The position numbers and the translations under genes were made by a program. Of a stretch of 36,189 nucleotides of DNA, positions 118 through 19,945 are shown piece by piece. Position 1 is the first letter of the stretch, and every line of letters starts with the position of its first letter. This DNA comes from Brevinematales bacterium (lineage in GTDB: Bacteria > Spirochaetota > Brevinematia > Brevinematales > GWF1-51-8), in contig JABLXV010000036.1 in the NCBI GenBank assembly GCA_013177895.1, positions 1 to 36,189 on the forward strand, read 5' to 3'. Under the pieces are notes generated by a model. The model saw only the letters and a list, made by a program, of their open reading frames with translations. It did no database searches and was not told the DNA's origin.

Positions 118-510
118 TCATCTTTCTGGTAAGACCGTAAAGAAAGCGGTTTCGAAGAAAATGATGACCGGCGTATCCGGGAAAACATTCGCGCACGATC
201 CCGCCAACTGCATAACCACGGGTATATTGATAGGCGACATCGGAATCAGTGTTTCCAGTTTCTCCCTCACTTCCTTATTATACACACACGGATTGTCAAA
301 AATCCCCCCGCCGTTGATCACACGGATTGCAACCGTACCGATTCGTTCATTCTCATAGCCGGCGCTTTCCATGACCTGCCGGATTATATTGTCTCCTTCC
401 CGAATACCGCGATAATTCTCGATCCTCCCGTTATATATGACTACGGCGTTTTTATCCGATAGGGAGAATTTTAAACTGTTCTTGCCCGGATTGAGGATTA
501 ATGTGTTCAT
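118..510 (-). pseudogene. Truncated acetate-kinase-like protein (N-terminal part only)
   Basis: This 130-residue ORF begins at the ATG at 510, 7 nt after a GGAG ribosome site and 10 bp downstream of the acetate kinase stop. A longer in-frame start at 558 lies inside the upstream gene and has no ribosome site. It resembles the first domain of acetate kinases: NPGKNSLKF replaces the usual NxGSSSLKF, RVINGGG replaces HRVVHGG, and FFETAFFTVLP replaces FDTAFHxTxP. It then stops, so the second half of the fold, which holds most of the nucleotide site, is absent. I translated all three minus frames of bases 1-117 and none continues the family, so a simple frameshift inside the window does not explain it. 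It is probably a decayed paralogue; a short regulatory or partner protein is the alternative. Confidence 0.6.
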
Positions 511-520
511 ATGATCTCCA

Positions 521-1756
521 TTAGTTTTCGTTCTGCCGGTAAATTCGCGCCGTCTCACGGGCGATTTCCAATTCTTCGTTGGTCGCGATCACAAGAATTC
601 TGACATTACTGTTTTCCGATGAAATATCCGCGGGAAGCTGAGTCAGCGAATAATTCTTTCTTTGATCTATTTCGACCCCGAAAACATCCATACCGTTGCA
701 CGCCGCCGCGCGGACTTCAGGGATCAATTCCCCGATCGTGTCGGTAAAGACAATCGCGTCGGTTTTCCCCGTTACCGCGAGATACGCCCCGAGGCTTTTC
801 CTGATACGCCAGAGATAGACCTGAAGCGCAAGACGCTGTTTAATATCGCCGGAATCGTTCTTCAGATGATTGATTACGTCGCGAATATCGGAGGACTTCC
901 CGGAGAGGCCGAAAACTCCGCTTTTCTTATTCAGGAGATCCTCCATTTCATTGAAATCCCCGTCGGATAAAGACGTCAATTTCAGCGCGAGCGCGGGGTC
1001 GATATCCCCTGAACGCGTGCTCATTACAAGCCCCGGGAGCGGGGAATAGCCCATCGTATTATCGACCGACTTCCCGTTCACTACCGCGCAAAGGCTCGCG
1101 CCGCCGCTTCCCAGGTGACAACAGACCGCGTTCAGTTCGTTCGTCTCTATCCCCATCATTTTCGACGCTTCGCGGACTATATAGCGGTAGCTTGTCCCAT
1201 GGAAGCCGTACTTTTTAATATTCAGTTCCTTGACGATCTTCGCGGGTAACGCATATTTCGACGCATACCCGGGTATAGTCGAATGGAACGCGGTATCGAA
1301 GACCGCCACCTGTTTCAGTTCTGGGTAGTTTTTATAGCACGCCTCGATCAGATTGACTGCGGGCGGGTTATGCAGGGGCGCGAACTCCCCGGTTGCTTTG
1401 AGTTTTTCCACTGCGTTGGCATCCACGATGCAGTTTTCGGTGAACAGATCGCCGCCGTGTACGACTCGATGCCCGATGGCTTGAATCGTATTACCCGCAT
1501 CCCGGTTGATGATCCTGAGAATTTCTTCGAAAGCCGATTGATGATCCCCCATATCGGTGAAAATCGTGTCTTCCCGCCCGTTCTCGCGGTGAATGACGCG
1601 GGACGCCTGCGCTGATTTCGAACCGATTCTCTGCGCCTCGCCCGAAAGGATTTCCCTTTCCGACGGCATTTCAATCAGCCTGTATTTGAGAGACGAACTC
1701 CCGCAGTTGAATACGAGAATATTCACGCCCCTTTCATTTATTTCCGTAACTTTCAT
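521..1756 (-). CDS. ackA: Acetate/propionate kinase family protein
   Basis: The 411-residue product has the full length of acetate kinases, which interconvert acyl phosphate plus ADP with carboxylate plus ATP in the cytoplasm. Visible motifs in order are NCGSSSLKYRL near residue 18, GHRVVHGG, FDTAFHSTIPGYASKYALP, YGFHGTSYRYI, CHLGSGG, STRSGDIDPA, SGVFGLSG and, near the C terminus, TNEELEIARETAR. Several usually strict positions differ: HLGSG for HLGNG, MGYSPLPGL for MGLTPLEGL, and TIGELIPEVR for GIGENSxxVR. It may therefore prefer another acid. The ATG at 1756 follows AGGATACTCAA; the internal GTG at MNILVFN-like position lacks a spaced ribosome site. It is second in an operon with the M20 hydrolase, nine bases after that gene's TAG. 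The family call is firm, the substrate is not. Confidence 0.88.
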   Translation of the reverse strand: MKVTEINERGVNILVFNCGSSSLKYRLIEMPSEREILSGEAQRIGSKSAQASRVIHRENGREDTIFTDMGDHQSAFEEILRIINRDAGNTIQAIGHRVVHGGDLFTENCIVDANAVEKLKATGEFAPLHNPPAVNLIEACYKNYPELKQVAVFDTAFHSTIPGYASKYALPAKIVKELNIKKYGFHGTSYRYIVREASKMMGIETNELNAVCCHLGSGGASLCAVVNGKSVDNTMGYSPLPGLVMSTRSGDIDPALALKLTSLSDGDFNEMEDLLNKKSGVFGLSGKSSDIRDVINHLKNDSGDIKQRLALQVYLWRIRKSLGAYLAVTGKTDAIVFTDTIGELIPEVRAAACNGMDVFGVEIDQRKNYSLTQLPADISSENSNVRILVIATNEELEIARETARIYRQNEN

Positions 1757-5232: not shown

Positions 5233-8200
5233 TTATACTTTATACTGACTTTTTATTTTTAGCTTTGCCCTATGATAGATTTCTTTTGCTAACGGCGGAT
5301 ACATAGCTTTATTGAAATCCGGATCACTCATAAAACGGGATACAAAATCATCATTTTCCGCCATTCGCTGAATCACTATCGCTTCAATTACGGCCTTAAT
5401 TCCCAACATAAACTTTTCTAAAGAATTTGCCTTTGCAGTCTGAATAACTCTATCATCGTTCACAGCGGTTTCAGTAATTTGATCCAATAATAGTCTTTCT
5501 TCTTCGTTAAACTCAGTTCCAAGCTTATCGTTTAATAACTGGATAATTTCAGATAATGGCGTTTGTTCATCCTTTGATTTACTTGTCCCGACCGCCGTAG
5601 GACTTTTTACCCCGGGTGTTTCTCCATTAGATAAATCTATTTTTCCGGACATCGCCATCTCAACCCGGTAGTATTCCAACTCGACATCATCCTCGGGATG
5701 CGGATTCTCTCCATTTTCTTCTAGAAAGATTTTCTTCAAGAGTTTTTTGCAATAACAATACAATATTTCCCAATCGGTATCGAAATAAGGAATAACCTGA
5801 CTAATAAACGCATAGTATTTTGTATAAGCGGTGATCTTTTCATAAAATAGTTTTCTGTGTTCTTCATCCAGCAAGTCAAACCGCTTTTTCGAAGGATCAA
5901 TGAGCTTTTCCATTTCTGCATGGTCAGAGGGTTTCTGTAAATACTTCGGTAAATAGAATATTTTAGCAAGAGCCTCTACATCTTCCCATCGATAAACCTG
6001 CATCTCATCCATTTCATGTTTCAACTGTTCGAGCAGTAAAGGATCGGACGGCTCTTCCAGTGTCGTTACATCATAATAGGGTTTGAATGCTTGATAGATA
6101 TCTTCAGTCGAATTTACAAAATCCAATACAAATGGGGGTTCCTTCCCCGAATAAATACGGTTCAAGCGGGATAATGTTTGTACAGCCTGGACATTATCTA
6201 GACGCTTATCCACGTACATGGCGCAGAGTAACGGCTGATCGAATCCGGTTTGGTACTTATTTGCAACGATCAATACCTGATAATCCGAGGATGCGAACCT
6301 ATTCGGGAGTTGGAGTTCCGAAATGGGTTTTCCGGTAACAATATCCTTATTCATTTCAGGTTCGGTATAAGGTTTACCTGTTTCTTCATCTTTAACGGTT
6401 CCGCTGAATGCGACCAGAGTACGAATATCGGTATAATGATTTTCAGCGATATACTTATCAAAGGATAGTTTATACCTGACGGCATGGAGACGCGAGCCTG
6501 TGACCACCATCGCTTTAGCCCGGCCTTGGATTTTACTCCGGACATGATCGCGGAAATGCTCGATGATGATCTCAGTCTTCTGCTCGATGTTATGAGGATG
6601 AAGGACAAGAAACTTAGTCAATTTCTTCTCGGCCTTTTTCTTCGGCATCAAGGGATTATCTTCGATGGTTTTAATTATCTTGAAATAGGTATCATACGTC
6701 GTATAACGCTGGAGAACATCGAGGATAAATCCTTCCTCAATCGCCTGCCGCATCGAATAGGTATGAAATGCGGCGGGTTTTCCGTCCGCCCCTACCCGCC
6801 CGAAAATCTCCATCGTTTTACCCTTGGGGGTAGCGGTGAACGCGAAAAAGCTCATATTCTTCTGCTTCCCGCGTGTCTCAAGGACCCTGTTCAGGCCGTC
6901 TTCCCAATCGAATTCCGCTTCATCGGTCGATATGCCCGATCCGGCTCCGAGCAGTTTTTTCAGTTCCGCGGCGCTCTCGCCGGTCTGACTGGAATGAGCC
7001 TCGTCCACAATAACCGCATAATTACGGTTTGCGATCTTCTCCTGCCAGTCCTTTGCCATAGTAATCGCCCTATCATCGGGATTGTCGATGCTATCGGCGC
7101 CGGCAATATGCAGGAGACCATTTAATATAAAGGGGAATTTTTGCAGGGTGGTGATCACAATCTGCGTGCCGTCCACCAGGGCTTGCGCGAGCTGGCGCGA
7201 ATCCTTCTCGACCGGTAGAACCACGCCCGATTTATGCTCGATTTGATAGATCGCGTCCTGAAGCTGTTTATCCAATATGCGCCGGTCGGTGATCACGATC
7301 ACACAATCGAAGATTTTTTTATCGCCCTTGCTATGCAGGCTCGACAGGCGGTGGGACAGCCAGGAGATACTATTCGTCTTACCGCTTCCCGCCGAATGCT
7401 GAATAAGATAGTTATTCCCCGACCCTTCTCCCCGCGAGGTAAGGATCAGCTTACGGACGGAATCCAGTTGATGATAACGGGGGAAAATCATCGTTTCCTT
7501 CTCGACCTTTTTATGACCGCCCTTACCGTCGTCCACCTTCTCGGTCTTTTTTTCCAGGAATATGTAACTACCCGCGATATCCAAAAAGCTGTCGCGGGCG
7601 AGGACTTCCTCCCAGAAATACGCGGTGCGATGGCCGTCCGGGTTTAACGGGTTTCCCGCGCCGCACTCGATCGCGCCGGGGTTGCTCCCCCGGTTGAACG
7701 GGAGAAACCATGTGCTATCGCCGCTTAGCCTGGTCGCCATATAGACTTCGTCGGGATCCGCCGCGAAATGAACGGGGGCGCCCTTGACGAACTGGAACAG
7801 CGGCGCGCGGGGATCGCGCGACGATTTATACTGCGCGACCGCGTCCCGCCACGTCTGGCCGGTAAACGGGTTCTTCAGCTCCACGGTGGCCACGGGTATC
7901 CCGTTCAGCGATAGAACCATATCGACCGTACTCCCGTCCCACGGATGGCACGGCACCTGGCGGGTGACATGAAGGAGGTTTTTCCCATAGCTTTCGAGGG
8001 TTTCCGGTACGAGATCATTCGCGGGCCTGAAGTACGCCAGTTCGAAGGCTTTCCCGTAGAATTTGAAGCCGTGCCGGAGGATATGCATCGTTCCCTTCAG
8101 GGCGCGTTCCTTCACGAGCGCATCGATCAGCATAGCGGGCAGTTCAGCGCCGTGGAGATTCTCCATCTCCGCCCATAGCTTCGGCTGGGTGTCCCTGATA

Positions 8201-8331
8201 AACCCGACGGCGTATCCCGGGAAGAGGGCGTGTTCCTTATCCCATTCGTCCTTCGAGCCGCTTGCCCAACCCTTTGCCGTCATCGTTTCCTGGATATACG
8301 CTTCGAACGCTTTTTCTTTCCCCGCATCCAT
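5233..8331 (-). CDS. hsdR: Type I restriction enzyme, restriction/translocase subunit HsdR
   Basis: The 1032-residue protein has the full length of HsdR. It cleaves unmodified DNA after ATP-driven translocation as part of the R2M2S complex. The endonuclease domain shows a PD-(D/E)xK core: Asp137 in STVDMVL and Glu151-Lys153 in VELKN. Superfamily-2 motor motifs follow: Walker A SAGSGKTN (313-320), IVDEAH near 444, FFAFTATPK near 500, VVTGSR, QTGFDQP and TLSRLNRI. The C-terminal 200 residues are helical, as is usual for binding the methylase core. An AGGAG ribosome site precedes the ATG at 8331. It is the last gene of hsdM-hsdS-hsdR and is separated from hsdS by a 73-bp repeat-containing gap, so it may be translated or transcribed at a different level. 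No disruption is seen. Confidence 0.97.
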   Translation of the reverse strand: MDAGKEKAFEAYIQETMTAKGWASGSKDEWDKEHALFPGYAVGFIRDTQPKLWAEMENLHGAELPAMLIDALVKERALKGTMHILRHGFKFYGKAFELAYFRPANDLVPETLESYGKNLLHVTRQVPCHPWDGSTVDMVLSLNGIPVATVELKNPFTGQTWRDAVAQYKSSRDPRAPLFQFVKGAPVHFAADPDEVYMATRLSGDSTWFLPFNRGSNPGAIECGAGNPLNPDGHRTAYFWEEVLARDSFLDIAGSYIFLEKKTEKVDDGKGGHKKVEKETMIFPRYHQLDSVRKLILTSRGEGSGNNYLIQHSAGSGKTNSISWLSHRLSSLHSKGDKKIFDCVIVITDRRILDKQLQDAIYQIEHKSGVVLPVEKDSRQLAQALVDGTQIVITTLQKFPFILNGLLHIAGADSIDNPDDRAITMAKDWQEKIANRNYAVIVDEAHSSQTGESAAELKKLLGAGSGISTDEAEFDWEDGLNRVLETRGKQKNMSFFAFTATPKGKTMEIFGRVGADGKPAAFHTYSMRQAIEEGFILDVLQRYTTYDTYFKIIKTIEDNPLMPKKKAEKKLTKFLVLHPHNIEQKTEIIIEHFRDHVRSKIQGRAKAMVVTGSRLHAVRYKLSFDKYIAENHYTDIRTLVAFSGTVKDEETGKPYTEPEMNKDIVTGKPISELQLPNRFASSDYQVLIVANKYQTGFDQPLLCAMYVDKRLDNVQAVQTLSRLNRIYSGKEPPFVLDFVNSTEDIYQAFKPYYDVTTLEEPSDPLLLEQLKHEMDEMQVYRWEDVEALAKIFYLPKYLQKPSDHAEMEKLIDPSKKRFDLLDEEHRKLFYEKITAYTKYYAFISQVIPYFDTDWEILYCYCKKLLKKIFLEENGENPHPEDDVELEYYRVEMAMSGKIDLSNGETPGVKSPTAVGTSKSKDEQTPLSEIIQLLNDKLGTEFNEEERLLLDQITETAVNDDRVIQTAKANSLEKFMLGIKAVIEAIVIQRMAENDDFVSRFMSDPDFNKAMYPPLAKEIYHRAKLKIKSQYKV

Positions 8332-8349
8332 TTGTTTTCTCCTAAAAAT

Positions 8350-8388
8350 TACAGATAAAATACAGATATTTTACAGATAAATACAGAT
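8350..8388. repeat. Four TACAGAT heptamers phased at 10-11 bp
   Basis: TACAGAT occurs at 8350, 8361, 8372 and 8382, giving periods of 11, 11 and 10 bp, with A/T-only filler. On the coding strand of hsdR these read ATCTGTA and end about 12 bp before the AGGAG ribosome site. The period equals one DNA helical turn, so a protein could bind all copies on one face. A slippage-prone tract or an RNA-level signal are alternatives. Confidence 0.7.
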
Positions 8389-8404
8389 AATTCATTTTCT
8401 CCCC

Positions 8405-9682
8405 CTACCCTCTCACGTCTATTTTCCCGGTGACCGCCGCGCCGGTCAGCGCCGAACGGTACTCCGCGAGTTTTCCGATCACCGTTTCCACCTTCCCCGA
8501 CAGCGCGTCGATCTTCGCGGTCTCGCGGTCGAGGTATTCCGCGATTGCCTGCTGTTCTTTATAAGGTGGAACGGGAAAAAGGAAATTTTTAATTGATTCT
8601 AGGTCTAAACTATCAACAGTTGCGCCAGCTTTTCTCCATATTGTTAGAAGCTGTTTTTGATGTGCATGTATAAAACTTCCATAATATAATGGAGATAATT
8701 TAATTTTTGGAATTAAAGCTTTTATATCTTGATTAATTGCCATTTCTTTTGTAATTATGCAAGCAGGAATGGAATGCTGAAGAATCCCAGATCGTAAAAC
8801 CATTAAAAGAGTATCTTTTGGAATAAGGTTTGTTGCACTTTCTTCAATTGCAATATTAGAAATATGATCTTCAGTATCTACGATATATTTACTTTTCATA
8901 TCTTTTGATGATACCCAAGAAATTTCACCATCCCAGTAATCCGGGTTTTCTGTTGAGGGAGTACCTCCACTAATAAAATTGAAGATATAACGACCTTTCT
9001 TCACCTCCCACCCCTCGGGAACATCCCCCAGCCATTCCACCCCGCTGGGCTTCATTTTCGCATTGGGGTCGAGCCCCTTGGTGACCGCGCGCGAGATGAG
9101 GGCGGAACGGTTCTCCGCGAGGAGCGCGATCAGCTCGCGGTTTTTCGCGATCAGCGCGTCGATCTTCGCCGTCTCGCGGTCGAGGTACGAGGCGATGGCC
9201 TGTTGTTCCGCGAGCGGGGGAAGGGGGAATGGTAAATTTCCCATAAACTCCCAGTTAACACGAGGCATTTTTGCGCCATAAGTGGAACCGTCAATTATAT
9301 CGATATAGGTTTTAGTTCGCAAGAGATAAGATGCATATTCGGGATAGAGATGTTTAAAAGGACGTAAAACAAATAAATCACCAATAGCTTCACCGAAACT
9401 TTTTGAAAGATAGACTTTAGCTAAATAAGGACGAAGTTTTCCAAAAAGAATATCCCCTTCTCTAAACGCGATACCTTCACCCTCATAAAAAGAATCTGTA
9501 TCAATATAATTTCCTGTCCAGCTTTCTATATTCTCAAGCGCAAGAGTATTTTCGTTCGTTTCGGTCTTATAAGAATTTAATGAAAGACAGTATTTCAATC
9601 TTTGAATATCCCACTTCTCAGGAACATCGCCGAGCCACTCTGTGCCGGACGGCTTAACCTTCGGGTACGGCTTGCGGGTCAT
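8405..9682 (-). CDS. hsdS: Type I restriction-modification specificity subunit HsdS
   Basis: The 425-residue protein recognises the bipartite target for the HsdMRS complex. It has the classic two-half design: target domain 1 (about residues 15-150), the central conserved helix region with PLAEQQAIASYLDRETAKIDAL, then target domain 2 (about 225-370) and a second copy of the conserved region, PYKEQQAIAEYLDRETAKIDAL, at the end. Each half starts with a PSGxEWLGDVPExW motif. At the DNA level the conserved parts are GC-rich, while both target domains are distinctly AT-rich, which suggests that the recognition domains were exchanged. Its ATG overlaps the hsdM stop as ATGA, implying translational coupling. 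Target sequence cannot be predicted from this. Confidence 0.95.
   Translation of the reverse strand: MTRKPYPKVKPSGTEWLGDVPEKWDIQRLKYCLSLNSYKTETNENTLALENIESWTGNYIDTDSFYEGEGIAFREGDILFGKLRPYLAKVYLSKSFGEAIGDLFVLRPFKHLYPEYASYLLRTKTYIDIIDGSTYGAKMPRVNWEFMGNLPFPLPPLAEQQAIASYLDRETAKIDALIAKNRELIALLAENRSALISRAVTKGLDPNAKMKPSGVEWLGDVPEGWEVKKGRYIFNFISGGTPSTENPDYWDGEISWVSSKDMKSKYIVDTEDHISNIAIEESATNLIPKDTLLMVLRSGILQHSIPACIITKEMAINQDIKALIPKIKLSPLYYGSFIHAHQKQLLTIWRKAGATVDSLDLESIKNFLFPVPPYKEQQAIAEYLDRETAKIDALSGKVETVIGKLAEYRSALTGAAVTGKIDVRG
8501..8557 (-). repeat. hsdS internal direct repeat, copy 2 (distal conserved region)
   Basis: This 57-bp segment encodes part of the distal conserved helix of HsdS. It is highly similar over its whole length to 9152-9208. 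Such repeats are the known substrate for recombination that swaps target domains. Confidence 0.7.
9152..9208 (-). repeat. hsdS internal direct repeat, copy 1 (central conserved region)
   Basis: Counterpart of the repeat at 8501-8557, encoding the central EQQAIASYLDRETAKIDAL helix. The two copies are in the same orientation, about 650 bp apart, and flank the second target domain. Confidence 0.7.
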
Positions 9683-11781
9683 TTCACGCCCTCCCCGCTG
9701 CCGGTGACTTCAGCGAGAAGCGCGACGATCTCCGTTTCGAGCGCGCGGATTTCCGCTTCGATCGTCTCGAGCGGGCGGGGCGGCTCGTAAACATAGAAAT
9801 GACGGTTGAACGGGAGCTCGTAGCCGACCTTTGTCTTATCCTCGTCGATCCACGCGTCGGGGACGTGGGGCAGGACCTCGCGCGCGAAGTATTCGGCGAT
9901 GTCCTCCCTGAGCGGGACGTTCTCGGTATCGCGCAGGTCGGGATCGGGTTCCGGATCGCCGCGGGAGTCGCGGCAGATTTCGGCGGTCTCGTCCTTTTCC
10001 TTCAACGCGTCGTGGACCGCTTTCTTTTCGGCGGATGTGAGAAAAACCTCTTTCTTTTTAATATATTCTTCCAGCTCTTCGATAAAGACGGCGCGTTCCT
10101 TGTAGAGCTTTCTCCCTGTTTCTTTACCGAACTCGTCAAGCATAGTCAATATCTCAAGCCGGCGTTCTTCTCCCAACGGTTCTTCGGCGATCTCGCGGAA
10201 GGCTTTCTGGTATTGGAGACGCTTGATCCGTTCGGCGTCCGCGCGGAAGTTCAGCCGGAGCGGGCGTTCGACCGTGATCTTGGAATACCCGAAGTCGGCG
10301 TTATCGAATATCTTGGAAACCGTGATCCGCTTATCGGCTTCGCCGTTTTCGAGCGCGCGGATATCCGAAAGCATCCGGGTATCGTTATGGATGAAGTCGC
10401 CGTGGATGACGGTCAGCTTGTCGATCATTTCATTTTTCTCTATTATGGGATTGCCCTGGATGATCTCGTCATGCCCGATCTGGCGGCGCTTGTTCCCGAG
10501 GCTCTTCCGCATCTTCTCGTAAAACTCCCGCCCGTCGATCAACTGAACCTTCCCTTTGCGGTGTTCCTCTTTCCGGTTGGTGATAATCCAGATATAGGTC
10601 GAAATCCCGGTATTGTAGAAGAGCTGGTCGGGCATCGCGGCCACCGCTTCGAGCCAGTCGTTTTCGATAATCCACTTCCGTATCTCGGACTCCCCGCTTC
10701 CCGCGTCGCCGGTAAAGAGCGGCGAACCGTTAAAGACGATCCCTATCCTGCTCCCCCCTTTTTCGAGCGGCTGCATCTTGGAGATCATGTGCATGAGGAA
10801 CAGAAGCGAACCGTCGTTGATACGCGGAAGCCCCGGCCCGAAACGCCCCTCGAAGCCGAGGGTTTTATGCTCGTCTTTGATCGTTTTTTCCTGCTGTTTC
10901 CACTCGACCCCGAACGGCGGATTAGCCAGCATATAATCGAATTTATCTTTCGGAAAACCGTCCTTCAGGAATGTGTCTCCTAATCGGATATTTTCCGATT
11001 CTTCTCCTTTAATCAGCATATCGGCTTTACAGATTGCATAAGCCTCGTCGTTTAAGTCCTGGCCGTAAAGGAAAGGTTTCGCGTCGGCGTTTAAAGTGCG
11101 GATATAACTTTCGGATACGGACAGCATCCCGCCGGTTCCGCACGCCGGATCGTAGATCGTCTTCACGACATGACTCTTGCTGAGATCGCCTTCGAACGCA
11201 AGAAGGAGATTGACCATCAGCTTGATGACTTCGCGCGGGGTAAAATGCTCCCCCGCTTCCTCGTTGGATAGTTCCGCCCCTATCCTGATCAGCTCCTCGA
11301 AGACATAACCCATCTGCACATTATCGATAGCTTCGGGCGATAGGTCTTTTATTGAAAACGCCTGGATTACTTTGTAAAGCAGGTTCTTTTCATTCATCTT
11401 ATCGACCTGCACCCCGAAATCGAACCGCTCGAATATCTGCCGGACATTGGAAGAAAAGGCGTTGATATAACTATTCAGGTTGGGAGCAATTTGATTGGGA
11501 TCGTTGAGAAGGTCGCGGAAGTTGAGTTTGGATACGTTATAGAACGAGACCCCGGTAATACTCCCCAATTGTGCAAGGATAATCGGTTCGGATTTCCCTT
11601 TTAACTTCTCGTACTCTTTTAATACTTCTTTCTTGGTAGATTCGAGTATGCAGTCAAACCGGCGTAACACGGTAAGCGGGAGAATTACCTTCCGGTACTC
11701 GTTACGCTTATAGGGTCCGCGCAGGAGATTGCAAATTTCCCAGATAAATTTCACCATTTCAGAATGTATAAGCGGAGACAT
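9679..11781 (-). CDS. hsdM: Type I DNA adenine methyltransferase subunit HsdM
   Basis: The 700-residue protein methylates adenine in the host target using S-adenosylmethionine. The N-terminal helical HsdM domain (about 1-150) leads into the methylase core with motif I DPACGTGG (211-218) and the N6-adenine motif IV NPPF (287-290). It is about 200 residues longer than many HsdM proteins. The extra C-terminal part contains charged helices and ends in LPFNRHFYVYEPPRP plus a coiled coil (ETIEAEIRALETEI). I recognise this extension from other long HsdM proteins, where it is thought to contact HsdS. I chose the ATG at 11781 because AGGAG lies 7 nt upstream; an in-frame ATG at 11817 has no ribosome site. 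First gene of the operon. Confidence 0.95.
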   Translation of the reverse strand: MSPLIHSEMVKFIWEICNLLRGPYKRNEYRKVILPLTVLRRFDCILESTKKEVLKEYEKLKGKSEPIILAQLGSITGVSFYNVSKLNFRDLLNDPNQIAPNLNSYINAFSSNVRQIFERFDFGVQVDKMNEKNLLYKVIQAFSIKDLSPEAIDNVQMGYVFEELIRIGAELSNEEAGEHFTPREVIKLMVNLLLAFEGDLSKSHVVKTIYDPACGTGGMLSVSESYIRTLNADAKPFLYGQDLNDEAYAICKADMLIKGEESENIRLGDTFLKDGFPKDKFDYMLANPPFGVEWKQQEKTIKDEHKTLGFEGRFGPGLPRINDGSLLFLMHMISKMQPLEKGGSRIGIVFNGSPLFTGDAGSGESEIRKWIIENDWLEAVAAMPDQLFYNTGISTYIWIITNRKEEHRKGKVQLIDGREFYEKMRKSLGNKRRQIGHDEIIQGNPIIEKNEMIDKLTVIHGDFIHNDTRMLSDIRALENGEADKRITVSKIFDNADFGYSKITVERPLRLNFRADAERIKRLQYQKAFREIAEEPLGEERRLEILTMLDEFGKETGRKLYKERAVFIEELEEYIKKKEVFLTSAEKKAVHDALKEKDETAEICRDSRGDPEPDPDLRDTENVPLREDIAEYFAREVLPHVPDAWIDEDKTKVGYELPFNRHFYVYEPPRPLETIEAEIRALETEIVALLAEVTGSGEGVK

Positions 11782-11853
11782 TTTTAGCACTCCTGATATA
11801 AAAAGATGGTACTGCATTTGAATTATTGATGTATATTTTATATCTTATTACTC

Positions 11854-13036: not shown

Positions 13037-14704
13037 CTAGAAATCCTTGAAATCGTCCATCGGTATCTTGTCCTCCGGGCGGATGATATCCACTCCCTCG
13101 TCCTTGTGCGATAACTGGACTGCCTTCTTCGCCTCGGCGGGATTCTCGTCCCTCTTGTGCTCGATCAGGTGTATCTTATGCTCCTGATGCTTCGCCTTCT
13201 TCGCGCGCGCTTCCGCGGCAAGGGTTTGCGCCTGTCCCGCGCCACGGACGATCGCGTTCAGTTTTTCCACTACTTCGTTGAGTACCTCCGACTGGCTCAG
13301 AAGTTCCTCGCCCGCCGCCGCAGTCTCCTCCGATGTGGACGCCGTCTGCTGGACGACCGTGTTGATCTGGCTCACCGCCTTCGTCACCTGGTTCGCGCCC
13401 TTCAGCTGCTCCTGCGACGCTTTATTGATCTCGTCCATAATCGTCTTCACTTTCTCCATCAGTTCGCCCGACGCGTTCGCGTTCTCGAGCACCTTAGCGC
13501 CCATATCTTTTCCGGTCTTCACACTGTTGATCGCGTTCTCGATCAGTTGGGCGGTCTCCTTAGCGGCGTCCGCGCTCTTCTGCGCGAGACTCTTCACCTG
13601 GTCGGCCACCACCGCGAACCCTCGTCCGGCGTCCCCGGCGCGCGCCGCCTCGACCGCCGCGTTCAGCGCGAGGATGTTCGTCTGGAACGCGATATCGTCG
13701 ATCACCTTGATCACCTTCGCGACCTTCTGGCTGTTCTGGTCGATCTCCTCGTGCGCTTCACTTAAATCCTGCATCAGTTTCACGCTGTCGGCGGCGCCTT
13801 TATACGCGCCCCCGATCATACCGCTTCCCTGCGTGATATTTTTAGTATTCGATTCGATGATGGACTGGAGCTCCTCGAGAGACGAGGTCATCTCCTCCAC
13901 CGACGACGCGAGCTCCGACGCCCCGCTCGACAGTTCCTGGCTCGACGACGATACCTGGCCCGCCGCCGATTCGAGGCTTCCCGCCGAACTGAACAGGTCG
14001 CTCGTGATGACATTAACCGGTTTGGAGATGGACGATGAAAGAACGATGCCTAGTATCAGGGCGAGGATAAATCCCCCCGCCGCAGCCGAAATAATAACGA
14101 TGTTCAATGTATCGGCTATTGAAATCGAATGATTCACTTCCTGCACCCCGTAATAATCCATTACATACTCAATGAGTTTATCTAACCGTGCGAGAGCTTC
14201 ATTGAAAACTGTTTGAATATTTCCCTTCAATGCCGCTTCTGCCAACCGGATCGAGATTTCCTGCTTATCAATATTCTGGACATAATGAAGGTCATTCACC
14301 AGCGCGAAATATTCGTTATTTACAACGGCTTCTTCTTTCAATTTTTCCATAAACGAGTCAAAAAGCTGCTTTTCTTCTTCGGTATGCGCGAGAAGGATAT
14401 AATTCGACAAAGCATAGTTATACGCCGTGCGGGCTATAGCGACATTCGTATATTGCCGTTTTATATCCTCATCGGAAATATACCCGGAAATCAGGGTACG
14501 AACCGCGACTTTGATTTCAAGCTGCCCTGTTTCGACTTGATAAAGATTTGCAATACTGGGAATACTCTTTTTCCCTAGACTAGCAATTTCATTCGATAAA
14601 GAAGAAATCCCAATCCATCCCAATGCTCCAACGCCACCTGTCAGGATTGCCACAACAATAAACCCGGTCATCAGTTTTGCCGTAAGGCTCATGTTCTTTA
14701 ACAT
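13037..14704 (-). CDS. Methyl-accepting chemotaxis protein
   Basis: This 555-residue transmembrane receptor feeds the CheA/CheW system encoded just upstream. A first membrane helix lies at about residues 12-33. A roughly 160-residue periplasmic four-helix-bundle sensor follows, then a second membrane helix near 203-228 ([18 protein letters not shown]). A HAMP-like junction follows. The cytoplasmic signalling hairpin carries the strongly conserved tip: [47 protein letters not shown]. Methylation-type Glu/Gln pairs are present around both arms. The C terminus is a charged tail without a CheR-binding NWETF-type pentapeptide. AAGGAG precedes the ATG at 14704. It is the last gene of the operon and sits 82 bp downstream of cheW; a strong terminator follows. 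Ligand unknown. Confidence 0.95.
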
Positions 14705-14786: not shown

Positions 14787-15293
14787 TTATATCGCTTTCG
14801 CCTCCTGCACGTCCAAGTGCTTTTCGTTGAACTCACGGATTTCCACCACTTCGTCGGAACCGAGGATTTTGTCCATATTCAGCATCATAATCATATGCTC
14901 GCCCACCTTCGCGATCCCGTCGAGGTACTGGCTCTTCAGGCGGAGCCCGATATCGGGAGTTTTCTCGACATCCTCCTCCTTGATACTGACCACATCCTGA
15001 ACCGCGTCCACCGACATCCCGAGGTTGAACACTTCCTTCGCGCCCATGATATCCACGATAATAAAAACGGTGCGGTCGGAATAATCCTGCTCCTGCATCC
15101 CGAACTTCGCCCTCATGTCGATGATCGGAATGATCTTCCCGCGAAGGTTAATCACCCCTTTCAGGAAATCGGACGCTTCGTGAATAGGCGTGATTTTCAC
15201 GAAACGGATGACCTCGCGGATTTTCGAGATCGGCACACCGTAGTCCTCGTCATTGATGTTAAATACCAAGTACTTGGTCGCATTGTCAGCCAT
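14787..15293 (-). CDS. cheW: Chemotaxis coupling protein CheW
   Basis: The 168-residue protein is a single CheW domain that bridges receptors to the CheA kinase. It starts KYLVFNINDEDYGVPISKI, followed by the characteristic FLKGVINLRGKIIPIIDMR core and VGLxVD-like MSVDAVQDVV. The C-terminal 20 residues (DEVVEIREFNEKHLDVQE) extend slightly beyond the fold. The start is fixed by AAGGAGG 6 nt before the ATG. It lies 15 bp after cheY in the same operon. Confidence 0.96.
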   Translation of the reverse strand: MADNATKYLVFNINDEDYGVPISKIREVIRFVKITPIHEASDFLKGVINLRGKIIPIIDMRAKFGMQEQDYSDRTVFIIVDIMGAKEVFNLGMSVDAVQDVVSIKEEDVEKTPDIGLRLKSQYLDGIAKVGEHMIMMLNMDKILGSDEVVEIREFNEKHLDVQEAKAI

Positions 15294-15308: not shown

Positions 15309-15674
15309 TTACTTCTTCAGGAACATCTCCACCACTTTGATGAACTTGTCCGCATCAAACGGTTTGATGATCCATCCGGTCGCCCCCTTGTTCTTCGCCT
15401 GTACCATTTTCTGTTTGTCCGATTCGGTAGTCAGCATCACAATCGGCGTGGCGGTATCGAGCTGGCGAATCTCGCCGATCAGCGTGATTCCGTCCATATT
15501 CGGCATATTGACATCGAGCACGTACAGCTCGATGGATTGATAGATACTTTTAATTTTATTCATCGCGTCCACGCCGTCCTCCGCCTCGAGAACGTCTTTA
15601 TATCCGTAAAGATCGAGCGATTTCTTAACTACGCTCCTGACCACCCCTGAATCGTCTACGATTAAAATGGACAT
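15309..15674 (-). CDS. cheY: Chemotaxis response regulator CheY
   Basis: This is a single receiver domain of 121 residues with no output domain, as in CheY, which carries the phosphoryl signal from CheA to the motor. The acidic pocket Asp7-Asp8, phospho-acceptor Asp54 in LDVNMPNMDG, switch Thr83 in MLTTES and Lys104 in IKPFD are all present. AAGGAGCGGGT precedes the ATG at 15674. It lies 19 bp after cheA. Confidence 0.95.
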   Translation of the reverse strand: MSILIVDDSGVVRSVVKKSLDLYGYKDVLEAEDGVDAMNKIKSIYQSIELYVLDVNMPNMDGITLIGEIRQLDTATPIVMLTTESDKQKMVQAKNKGATGWIIKPFDADKFIKVVEMFLKK

Positions 15675-15693: not shown

Positions 15694-17361
15694 TTATTCC
15701 TGACCGGCATCCTGTTTTAATTCCGCCATGCCTTTCTTGAGAAATTTATGATTATTGTTTTCTTCCTTATTTTTCGCCGCGTCGAGGAATCCCTCGATAT
15801 CCACGACAAACCCGATCGCCCCGTCGCCGAAAATAGTGCCCCCGGAGAAAATCGATAGATGGCTCAGACTCTCCCCGAGATTCTTGATCACTATTTCCTG
15901 TTTCCCGATTATCCTATCCACTAATATACCATAATTTTTATTTTCATGCGAAATAATTACCGCTAAAATTTGTGAATTTACATCCTTTACTTCGTATTCC
16001 CGCGAGAAAATAGCGGTGGAGAAGATCAACGGGATATAGTTCCCGCGGTTATACAGCATTTTACTCCCGTCATCCATTTCCTTGACCTGATCGGCCTGCG
16101 GAACCAGTATCTCGTCGACCGAGTTGAACGGGAGCACATAATTGTTCTCCGCGATCTGAATGACAAACCCCTCGATGATCGCGAGCGTTAACGGGAGCCG
16201 GATGATAAAACGGGTATACTTGCCTAGTTCCGACGTGATCTCGACTTTCCCGTGTATCTCGTCGATATTCTTCCTGACAACGTCCAGTCCTACGCCGCGC
16301 CCGGAAACTTCGGTCACCTTCTTCGCGGTGGAAAATCCCGGCAGAAAGAGGAGATTATAGATTTCCTTGTCGGTCATCTCGCGGGATTGTTCCTCGGTGA
16401 TCAGCCCGCGTTCGATACCCTTTCGCATAATGACATCCTTGTCGATCCCCGCGCCGTCGTCTTCTATAATAATCTGGATACCGTTACCGCGGTGTTCCGC
16501 CGATACGGAAATCCTGCCGACCTTATCTTTTCCGCGTCTCGTCCGCTCCTCGGGAGATTCGATACCGTGATCCACCGAGTTGCGTACCATATGTACGAGC
16601 GGGTCGTAGATCGCCTCGACCACATTCCTGTCGAGTTCCGTATCCTCGCCGTGGATATCCACTATCACGGTCTTATGAAGTTCGTTGGATGTATTCCTGA
16701 TGACGACGCGCAGCTTGTTAAAAACTTCCGTAATCGGCACCATTCCCATAGATAGTACGATGTTCTTGATATTGGTCGTGATACCCTCGAGCTGGGAAAT
16801 AATTTTTTCCACACCCGTCACGCTGTCGTCTCCCGAGGTGTCTCTGCGGGTCAGTTTCCTTTCGCTGTCGATCACCTGCCGGAGCATCGACTGGTTGATC
16901 ACCAGTTCCCCGACTATATCGATTAACGTGTTCAGGCGCTCGTTGGATACCTTCACATAGCTGACTTTCTTGGTAACCGAGGTTTGTTTGCGGATGGCGT
17001 CCTGTACATCTTCGGCAGAGACCATCTTTTCACGCACAGCGATCGTCCCGAATTTATCGTCGGTCTCGGACTGTTTCTGGAGGATGGACAGGATTTCTTC
17101 CTTCGTCAGCTTTCCCTCTTCGGCTAGTATTTCGCCGATCTTCTTCGTCTCGTATTGGGAAAGGATTCGCCGGATCAGGTCGATGTAGGAGAAAATATCC
17201 ACTTTCAGGAAACTTTCCCGCATTTTAATAATGTCGAAACTCAGGGTTTCCATGATGGAAACAAGGGTGCGGAGGAGATCGATCCCGTAGAAAATCACAT
17301 CGATCAGATCGCGCGTAATCCGTATCTTCCCGTCGCGAATCAGTACGAGAAGGTTCTCCAT
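15694..17361 (-). CDS. cheA: CheA, part 2: rest of HPt, MshEN-like, dimerisation, kinase and CheW-like domains
   Basis: This 555-residue ORF is the second part of a CheA broken by an amber codon at 17374. Its first 60 residues continue the HPt helices, starting at MENLLVLIRDGKI. Residues 74-126 form an MshEN/GspE-N-like domain (KIGEILAEEGKLTKEEI, then FGTIAVREKMVSAEDV). Dimerisation P3 runs from about 137 to 215 (LIDIVGELVINQS). The HATPase domain has N box HMVRNSVDHGIE, G1 EDDGAGID, F box LPGFSTA and G2 GRGVGLDVV. The P5 CheW-like domain fills the C terminus. The kinase core is intact. No ribosome site precedes the ATG at 17361, which lies four codons after the stop in the same frame. The true gene is therefore probably 15694-18030. 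Confidence 0.9.
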   Translation of the reverse strand: MENLLVLIRDGKIRITRDLIDVIFYGIDLLRTLVSIMETLSFDIIKMRESFLKVDIFSYIDLIRRILSQYETKKIGEILAEEGKLTKEEILSILQKQSETDDKFGTIAVREKMVSAEDVQDAIRKQTSVTKKVSYVKVSNERLNTLIDIVGELVINQSMLRQVIDSERKLTRRDTSGDDSVTGVEKIISQLEGITTNIKNIVLSMGMVPITEVFNKLRVVIRNTSNELHKTVIVDIHGEDTELDRNVVEAIYDPLVHMVRNSVDHGIESPEERTRRGKDKVGRISVSAEHRGNGIQIIIEDDGAGIDKDVIMRKGIERGLITEEQSREMTDKEIYNLLFLPGFSTAKKVTEVSGRGVGLDVVRKNIDEIHGKVEITSELGKYTRFIIRLPLTLAIIEGFVIQIAENNYVLPFNSVDEILVPQADQVKEMDDGSKMLYNRGNYIPLIFSTAIFSREYEVKDVNSQILAVIISHENKNYGILVDRIIGKQEIVIKNLGESLSHLSIFSGGTIFGDGAIGFVVDIEGFLDAAKNKEENNNHKFLKKGMAELKQDAGQE

Positions 17362-17373
17362 CTGGTGGCCGAT

Positions 17374-18030
17374 CTACTCGAAATTCTTCAGCCCGAGGAA
17401 CGCCGAGGAACCTTTGATGGTATGAAATGCGCGGAATACTTTATTGATATTTTCCTGATTGGTCTCGTCGTACTCCAGTTCGACCAGCGTAAACTGAGCG
17501 ACATCGAGATGCTCCTTGATCTCGTCGGCAAGCTGGGAGAGCATTTTCTTGTCGTCCACAATCCCGCTGAAGTAGGCCGGCCCGTAATGCTCCTCGAGGG
17601 ATATATCGTCAACGACGTTATCTTTGACAACACCCTTTTCAGTACCGCCGGTTTTCTCCTGAGCGGCGACAGCCTTTTTCTTCTCGCGGTGCAGGAGTTC
17701 CTCGATTACGGGGGAAATCTTATCGATCAATACCGCCGCGTTTTCAGGCGCGATAACGTCGGTAAATACCCGTTCGAGTATCCCGTTAGCGGTATCGATG
17801 ATTTCGAGGATTTCCTTTTCGCTGCCGATCTGCGACAGTTTCATTACCGTCCTGGCAAGCTGATTGACAAATTTCGCAATATCTTTGAATGTAGAATCCG
17901 ATGATAGTTTGGTTTGGATGGTGAGGTAGGCTTCTTTTAATTCGAGAACGGTCATTAAATCGCCGCTTTCAAAACCAGAGAGGGTTTTCTTGATTCTATC
18001 AAGAATGGAAGACGTTTCCTGCTGATTCAT
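17374..18030 (-). CDS. cheA: CheA, part 1: N-terminal extension and HPt domain up to an in-frame amber codon
   Basis: The 218-residue ORF starts at an ATG preceded by ACGGAG. About 150 residues of helical N-terminal extension of unknown role come first. Then comes the phosphotransfer domain with the phospho-acceptor His203 in AFHTIKGSSAFLGL. It stops at TAG directly after LKNFE. Reading on in the same frame gives IGHQMENLL, exactly what normally follows in HPt domains. One base separates it from a 778-residue CheA of normal domain order. TAG ends several other genes here (M20 hydrolase, hsdS, mcp, the 621-aa protein), so general amber reassignment is unlikely. Nonsense mutation, assembly error, readthrough, or two complementing fragments all remain possible. 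Confidence 0.88.
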   Translation of the reverse strand: MNQQETSSILDRIKKTLSGFESGDLMTVLELKEAYLTIQTKLSSDSTFKDIAKFVNQLARTVMKLSQIGSEKEILEIIDTANGILERVFTDVIAPENAAVLIDKISPVIEELLHREKKKAVAAQEKTGGTEKGVVKDNVVDDISLEEHYGPAYFSGIVDDKKMLSQLADEIKEHLDVAQFTLVELEYDETNQENINKVFRAFHTIKGSSAFLGLKNFE

Positions 18031-18199: not shown

Positions 18200-18228
18200 T
18201 TGACTAAAATCTCCCTCCTTTATATTAT
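18200..18228 (+). promoter_or_regulatory. Sigma-70 promoter of the divergent MCP-like gene
   Basis: TTGACT (18200-18205), a 17-bp spacer and TATTAT (18223-18228). The start near 18235 leaves about 60 nt of leader to the ATG at 18296. It is back-to-back with the che operon promoter, 32 bp away. Confidence 0.75.
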
Positions 18229-18295
18229 TAGCGATAACCGGTTGGGAAAGGGGATTTTTAAAGAGTCGAGAGCGAATTTTACAGGATGTAAGCGG

Positions 18296-19945
18296 ATGAG
18301 CAAACGGTTTAATTATCCCAAAGAATTGAATGTACAATTCTTACTTTCCATATTTCTTTTCAGTTTTGTCTTTCTGGCCGGCGGCGGAGCTATTCTATAT
18401 TTTATATGGTCCTCGCCCTCAACCAGTTCAGTTCCCGTAGCCTTATTCATACTATTTATTTCCGCCTCCGTAGTGTATCTGATTTTCGGTATCCTTCGTG
18501 ACAGAAACGTCAACCGGAAATACCTGCTCGAATCCCGTAACCGGATGCTGACCTCGTTTTATACCGTCCACTCCGTGATGAACCTGATTATCAACCTGTT
18601 CATGCTCTTAGAAAAAGTCCGCCTGCCCGGTGAAGATTCTTTTGTCGACGTCAAGTTCGAGAAACTCAGATCGAACATCTATAAAATTAAAGAAACCCTG
18701 CTCTCATTCGCGGAATACGAGGAGATGCTGGCTCATCCCGAAACAGTCAACGAGGAACTGATTGAGAAAGGGCTGAAAGAGATTAACAGTACTTTTTACT
18801 CGATCAACGAAAACATCATTGCCGCTATGAATGATTTCGTGGAAGCCTTCTTCGGTAAACGCGAAAACATTAAGAAGAGTTCCTCCTCCATGGCGACACT
18901 GATCTATTTCCTCGCGAATATCATTCCCATTATCTCCGACCTGTCCTCCTCGTCGAACCGTTTTTCCCGCGAGGTCATCCTGCAGGTGATCGCACAATTC
19001 GAGGAGATCGCCAGTTTCAGCAACCGGATTACCGATGATATTCAGGTAACCATGTCCGACCTGATGAACGAGAATAACGAGGACAGTCTGGCGTTTATTA
19101 TCAAGCGCGCCCATTCGGTCGTCGAGGATTTCGATACGTTCTATAAGAGTATGGATTCCCTCAAGGATGTATCCAACCACTTTGTCGATACGAGCGTGGA
19201 CAAGTTAAAAAATATCTCCGATATCGCCAATTCCATCGAGGAGATCGCGGAGACTATCAAGGTGATTTCCCTAAATGTGAGTATCGAGGCGGCGAACACG
19301 GGAAATATCGGTAAGGGGTTCCAGGTATTGGCGCGCGACCTCCGGCAGTTCGCGCATACCACTATGCAATTCGCGCAGGATGTGAAAAACCGCGTGCAGG
19401 AAACCATGCTCACGACGGAGAACCTCAAGACCGGATACCTCCAGAATATGGAGTCGGTTTACCGTTACGGGGACGAGATCAAGCAGTCGATCGAGTCGTT
19501 CGAACGGATCATCATCAAATCGTTCGATAAGATCCGCGGGATAATCGATACCCTGCGCGGATTCTCCAGCCGGATCGATACGGGTATTAAGGATGTCGTG
19601 GGAAAGCTCCAGTATTACGATATTACCAGCCAGGAAGTGGAGCACCTCAGCCAGTTTATCGAGCAGATTTTCAAGATATCCAGCTCGCGTATCGACGAAT
19701 TCCAGATCGACAAGATCCTCGGCAACGATTCCCGTCTGTCGATTAAAAAGGAGATCCTCGATACGGTCAATAATATTATCACCACCAAGAACGAACGTGA
19801 AATATACGATACCTATACGAAAATTTTCGGGATGCGTTCGGAAGAGATAAATATCGATAACAAGGTAGGTGATGATTTAGGTGTCAATCTATCCGATCAG
19901 ACGGTTCCGGGCACTTCGAACGCCGACGATATCATTATTTTCTAA
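18296..19945 (+). CDS. Degenerate MCP-like membrane protein
   Basis: The 549-residue protein starts MSKRFNYPKEL; AGGA lies 9 nt upstream, while a longer ATG at 18200 overlaps the promoter. Two membrane helices near residues 13-37 and 46-66 are separated by only a short loop, so there is no periplasmic sensor domain. The rest is long coiled coil. A weakened receptor signalling tip is visible: VISLNVSIEAANTGNIGKGFQVLARDLRQFAHTT in place of [30 protein letters not shown]. The Arg of AARAG and the VADEV core are changed, and no methylation pattern is evident. It is divergent from the che operon and probably takes part in the same arrays, perhaps as an insulated or structural receptor. An alternative is a non-chemotactic scaffold. 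Confidence 0.8.
   Translation: MSKRFNYPKELNVQFLLSIFLFSFVFLAGGGAILYFIWSSPSTSSVPVALFILFISASVVYLIFGILRDRNVNRKYLLESRNRMLTSFYTVHSVMNLIINLFMLLEKVRLPGEDSFVDVKFEKLRSNIYKIKETLLSFAEYEEMLAHPETVNEELIEKGLKEINSTFYSINENIIAAMNDFVEAFFGKRENIKKSSSSMATLIYFLANIIPIISDLSSSSNRFSREVILQVIAQFEEIASFSNRITDDIQVTMSDLMNENNEDSLAFIIKRAHSVVEDFDTFYKSMDSLKDVSNHFVDTSVDKLKNISDIANSIEEIAETIKVISLNVSIEAANTGNIGKGFQVLARDLRQFAHTTMQFAQDVKNRVQETMLTTENLKTGYLQNMESVYRYGDEIKQSIESFERIIIKSFDKIRGIIDTLRGFSSRIDTGIKDVVGKLQYYDITSQEVEHLSQFIEQIFKISSSRIDEFQIDKILGNDSRLSIKKEILDTVNNIITTKNEREIYDTYTKIFGMRSEEINIDNKVGDDLGVNLSDQTVPGTSNADDIIIF

Follow-up and report, generated by a model that had tools for sequence, protein, structure and literature searches.

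The question raised by this locus is whether a single in-frame TAG codon inside the HPt domain of a spirochaetal cheA gene reflects an unusual way of decoding or dividing the chemotaxis kinase, or a simple lesion of the gene or of its assembled sequence. The window, the whole stretch of 36,189 nucleotides analysed here, is contig C36 (1-36189) of a draft genome of 3.6 Mb in 112 contigs, about 95% complete, whose nearest named relatives are the metagenome-assembled spirochaetes Spirochaetes bacterium GWF1_49_6 and a Brevinematales bacterium. Our findings indicate that, in a cheA otherwise normal and under constraint, the TAG is very probably an isolated and recent lesion of one codon, either a genuine nonsense mutation or a consensus error, with no programmed function.

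The cheA frame and its in-frame TAG

Translation of the minus strand from 18030 to 15694 gave, as an earlier note on this DNA had described, a cheA frame of 778 codons, which is followed by a terminal TAA; its sole internal stop is the TAG at 17376-17374, which follows ...AFLGLKNFE and precedes IGHQMENLL... in the HPt (P1) domain. The ATG of the upstream piece has a GGAG at about -11, and this piece contains the phospho-acceptor histidine motif HTIKGSS and matches the Pfam Hpt profile only over its first half (positions 2-46 of 84), in agreement with the note's placement of the stop inside the HPt. In the downstream piece, Pfam recognizes H-kinase_dim, HATPase_c and CheW. Across both pieces, P1 with its phospho-histidine motif, P3, the P4 ATPase and the CheW-like P5 follow one another in CheA order, and, when the TAG is read through, the protein matches solved structures of CheA in P1 as well as in P3-P5; what the TAG takes from this gene is the uninterrupted single frame of a CheA. 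Since both flanking pieces share one frame and jointly give a nearly full-length match to a relative at 94% identity, a chance effect is excluded. The note had also located the break between HPt helices, which is right as to the domain but not clearly so as to a position in a loop: homology with E. coli CheA (VLQETTHLMENLL) would put the TAG at the start of the HQMENLL helix, after the phospho-histidine helix (HTIKGSSAFLGL), the helix boundaries presumably being those of known CheA P1 structures.

Between P1 and P3 the protein also has an MshEN-like stretch, of the c-di-GMP-binding type by sequence (16960-17150, minus strand; NF053729 above cut-off), and MshEN-CheA fusions have been mentioned previously (PMC5013675). 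The neighbouring cheY, cheW and mcp genes, already regarded as intact in the note, do have open frames and the corresponding Pfam domains (Table 1). The same-genus genome G002 has a counterpart of the divergent MCP-like gene, in which the frame is broken (L063:9563-11280, minus strand). Elsewhere in the window, an acetate-kinase-like remnant of 146 codons (118-558, minus strand), with a C-terminal part that is missing or decayed near the contig end, adjoins a full acetate kinase gene, and a type I restriction-modification locus with hsdR-, hsdS- and hsdM-like genes occupies positions 5233-11817 (minus strand).

Table 1. Features of the cheA locus and other interrupted genes of the same assembly (window positions, unless a contig and locus are given).
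Feature	Position	Strand	Description
cheA, upstream piece	17377..18030	-	218 codons; N-terminal region and first half of P1 (HPt); translation, Pfam
In-frame TAG	17374..17376	-	Glu codon (GAA or GAG) here in 3/3 same-genus relatives
First ATG after TAG	17359..17361	-	12 nt downstream; possible reinitiation codon, 555-aa P1-less kinase
cheA, downstream piece	15694..17373	-	Rest of P1, MshEN-like region, P3 dimerisation, P4 ATPase, P5 CheW-like, end TAA
cheY	15309..15674	-	Intact; Pfam Response_reg
cheW	14787..15293	-	Intact; Pfam CheW
Methyl-accepting chemotaxis protein	13037..14704	-	Intact; Pfam MCPsignal and 4HB_MCP_1
Divergent MCP-like protein	18200..19945	+	Intact in window; Pfam MCPsignal
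Second cheA	C55, L114:13123-15383	-	1-nt deletion at start of P5; intact in G001 and G003
flhA	C79, L158:13020-15125	+	1-nt deletion; neighbouring flagellar genes open
ribBA	C29, L176:9073-10294	-	7-nt tandem duplication between DHBP synthase and GTP cyclohydrolase II domains
PAS/histidine kinase	C23, L170:16138-18950	-	1-nt deletion; 938 codons in G001

Relatives and the age of the stop

The comparison of cheA among related genomes, which the earlier note had proposed, revealed that the stop is not conserved. The gene is open at this site in all three same-genus genomes, G002 (94% identity to the window cheA), G001 (82%) and G003 (75%), which carry the Glu codons GAA, GAG and GAA, respectively, and the frame is open too in the more distant G005 and G008. 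Therefore, the TAG is peculiar to the window genome; it differs by one base from the GAG of G001 and by two from the GAA that G002, the nearest relative, carries. A split CheA conserved across the phylum was considered and rejected, as no stop lies inside the aligned cheA of the four closest distant relatives (G039, G024, G042 and G018), and the internal stops reported in other distant relatives were found on re-examination to be located at the C terminus or away from the P1 site.

Many substitutions elsewhere in cheA would have made it a simple pseudogene, as the note pointed out, and the outcome was the opposite, the remaining gene being under strong constraint, with a dN/dS between the window and G002 of 0.092 for the whole gene, 0.159 before the TAG and 0.069 after it. 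When changes were polarised with G001 and G003, a simple parsimony count based on few changes, the window branch showed 11 nonsynonymous and 28 synonymous changes and the G002 branch 12 and 23; hence no nonsynonymous excess and no relaxation were seen on the window's own branch. Release from constraint over a tenth of that branch would predict about 23 nonsynonymous changes, and 11 or fewer would then have a probability of about 0.005, so that by this simple Poisson estimate on few polarised changes it is unlikely that cheA spent more than about 5-10% of the branch without constraint. An old or degraded pseudogene was rejected on these grounds (one lesion only, dN/dS of 0.09 and no nonsynonymous excess on the window branch), and the absence of relaxation implies that the TAG is either recent or absent from the organism.

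Decoding or restarting at the stop

A frame that continues perfectly beyond the stop and remains constrained is what would be seen if programmed readthrough or amber suppression yielded a full-length CheA, a reading that we consider very improbable. Constraint 3' of the TAG is unusable as evidence for it, because the recency of the lesion accounts for that constraint equally well, and the TAG is absent from all same-genus relatives. The gene for release factor 1 is present and open in the assembly, a single PF01409 match was found there, with no second, pylS-like synthetase, and the search for an amber suppressor tRNA suggested by the note yielded none with anticodon CUA among the 45 tRNA genes detected in this assembly, about 95% complete. 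Since the Ile-GAT and Ala-TGC tRNAs, usually present, are likewise missing from the set and the assembly is incomplete to that extent, a suppressor tRNA could have escaped detection. Two tRNA-Cys genes, both with anticodon GCA and 71 and 73 nt long, were identified (C1:67450-67520 and C3:2545-2617). TAG serves as an ordinary stop, which the note had stated for at least four other genes: it terminates 6 of the 23 genes considered likely in the window and, in sampled stretches of the genome, 84 of 322 long ORFs. The RNA around and after the TAG is no more folded than shuffled sequences (z = 1.19 and 0.45, respectively), and synonymous divergence near it resembles that of the rest of cheA, with no unusual conservation. 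Thus, neither conservation of the stop, nor decoding machinery or loss of RF1, nor structured or unusually conserved RNA was found for the window cheA, and amber recoding was rejected on the basis of RF1, the tRNA list, the lack of a second pylS-like gene and the open frames of the relatives.

The kinase could also function in two parts, if translation reinitiated 12 nt past the TAG and the resulting P1-less kinase had a partner in trans, either the N-terminal piece or another CheA. An ATG is available at that distance, and naturally split CheAs exist, as in Rhodobacter sphaeroides, where whole domains of CheA3 and CheA4 are divided between two genes and the proteins work together (PMC3591291). 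The window resembles that system in that the phospho-acceptor and catalytic domains end up in separate open frames, but it differs in that the TAG cuts P1 instead of falling between domains, nothing suggests that a restart has been selected, and the relatives are fused, with none of the same genus split. Neither a division between whole domains nor a start signal for each piece, as in split CheAs, was found here. No Shine-Dalgarno precedes this ATG (preceding sequence TTTCGAGTAGATCGGCCACCAG), whereas AGGAG precedes the starts of the neighbouring cheY and cheW, and its Met is kept in the fused relatives, which indicates that it did not arise for restarting. A P1-less kinase would be possible only through inefficient reinitiation, and a functional split kinase of this kind seems to us hardly credible. 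The same must be said of a lineage that recently split its CheA inside the HPt, with pieces that reassemble or with low-level readthrough giving full-length kinase, although such an HPt-split CheA, if true, would be a natural split chemotaxis kinase of a new type. Even taken together, readthrough and a working split kinase are decidedly improbable. Therefore, from the four options listed in the earlier note, the comparison with relatives leaves the nonsense mutation and the assembly error, whereas readthrough is disfavoured (unconserved stop, RF1, no suppressor tRNA, no structure) and so are reassembling fragments (fused relatives, restart without a ribosome-binding site).

If the TAG is genuine, translation would end after 218 codons, within P1, and the product would be devoid of the P3-P5 domains. 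Little or none of the downstream kinase piece would presumably be produced, given that the sole nearby restart ATG has no Shine-Dalgarno, and the array encoded by cheA, cheY, cheW and mcp may then be silent, or without a phospho-acceptor of its own.

Nonsense mutation or consensus error

In order to place this lesion among others, sampled stretches of the window genome were compared with stretches of G001, G002 and G003, covering 173 distinct genes and 187 kb. Clear breaks occurred in five of the 173 genes, namely the window cheA, the C55 cheA, the C79 flhA, the C29 ribBA and the C23 histidine kinase (Table 1), and consisted of three 1-nt deletions, one 7-nt tandem duplication and the one TAG. 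Two of the five broken genes are among 120 genes from stretches picked regardless of function, and the other lesions are at loci targeted on purpose; as the sample was partly aimed at motility loci, no enrichment in motility genes is claimed. In about 162 kb of G001 there was no clear break, except for matches resembling antisense shadow frames. In G003 flhA is broken, at a place different from that in the window genome, which together with the broken MCP-like gene of G002 shows that other drafts of the genus contain such lesions too.

A genuine nonsense mutation that arose recently in the sampled strain and left a null or near-null cheA, tolerated thanks to other chemosensory systems, has in our view about an even chance of being the explanation. 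The change is a base substitution, not an indel, the remaining cheA is constrained, the CheA of C13 has an open frame of 737 codons, and the pattern is consistent with the ordinary loss of one of three arrays. Nevertheless, redundancy is not obvious, given that flhA and the second cheA are also broken, the latter in a cluster of the canonical type with cheW, a CheX-like gene and a response regulator (as judged from sequence), and a similar lesion in the single ribBA locus suggests that the assembly may be error-prone. General motility decay was considered on account of flhA and two of three cheA genes and was rejected, as fliG, the sampled flagellar rod/hook gene domains and 16 of 16 MCP signalling domains are open.

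A consensus or assembly error, as could arise in a metagenome-assembled genome if, for example, coverage was low or strains were mixed, is a serious possibility to which we assign a probability short of even. Five isolated lesions in 173 genes, against no clear lesion in G001, point to it, and so does the identity of the genes: flhA, ribBA and GTP cyclohydrolase II are each single copy in the window genome, and breaks in the only flhA and the only GTP cyclohydrolase II gene fit a consensus error or a very recent mutation. Moreover, assembly artefacts tied to coverage, platform and assembler account for many of the internal stops and frameshifts seen in public genomes, and false pseudogenes of this kind are documented (PMC11017572). 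On the other hand, the deletions lie outside long homopolymers, and real pseudogenes can reach such a density of lesions. Taking both sides into account, we lean slightly toward mutation over consensus error.

The window cheA has the properties of the single-lesion and spurious pseudogenes of draft genomes (PMC11017572): an internal stop in an otherwise intact and constrained gene, intact close relatives, and further isolated disruptions of reading frames elsewhere in the assembly, with nothing specific that sets it apart from them. It is an already known kind of lesion, not a new way of reading genes, and it matters little in itself. As this locus illustrates, where close relatives have the gene intact, a perfectly continued frame with constraint on both sides of a stop is no evidence for readthrough, since a lesion of recent date gives the same picture. 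If the lesions in the two cheA genes and in flhA are real, loss of chemotaxis and motility may be under way in this spirochaete population.
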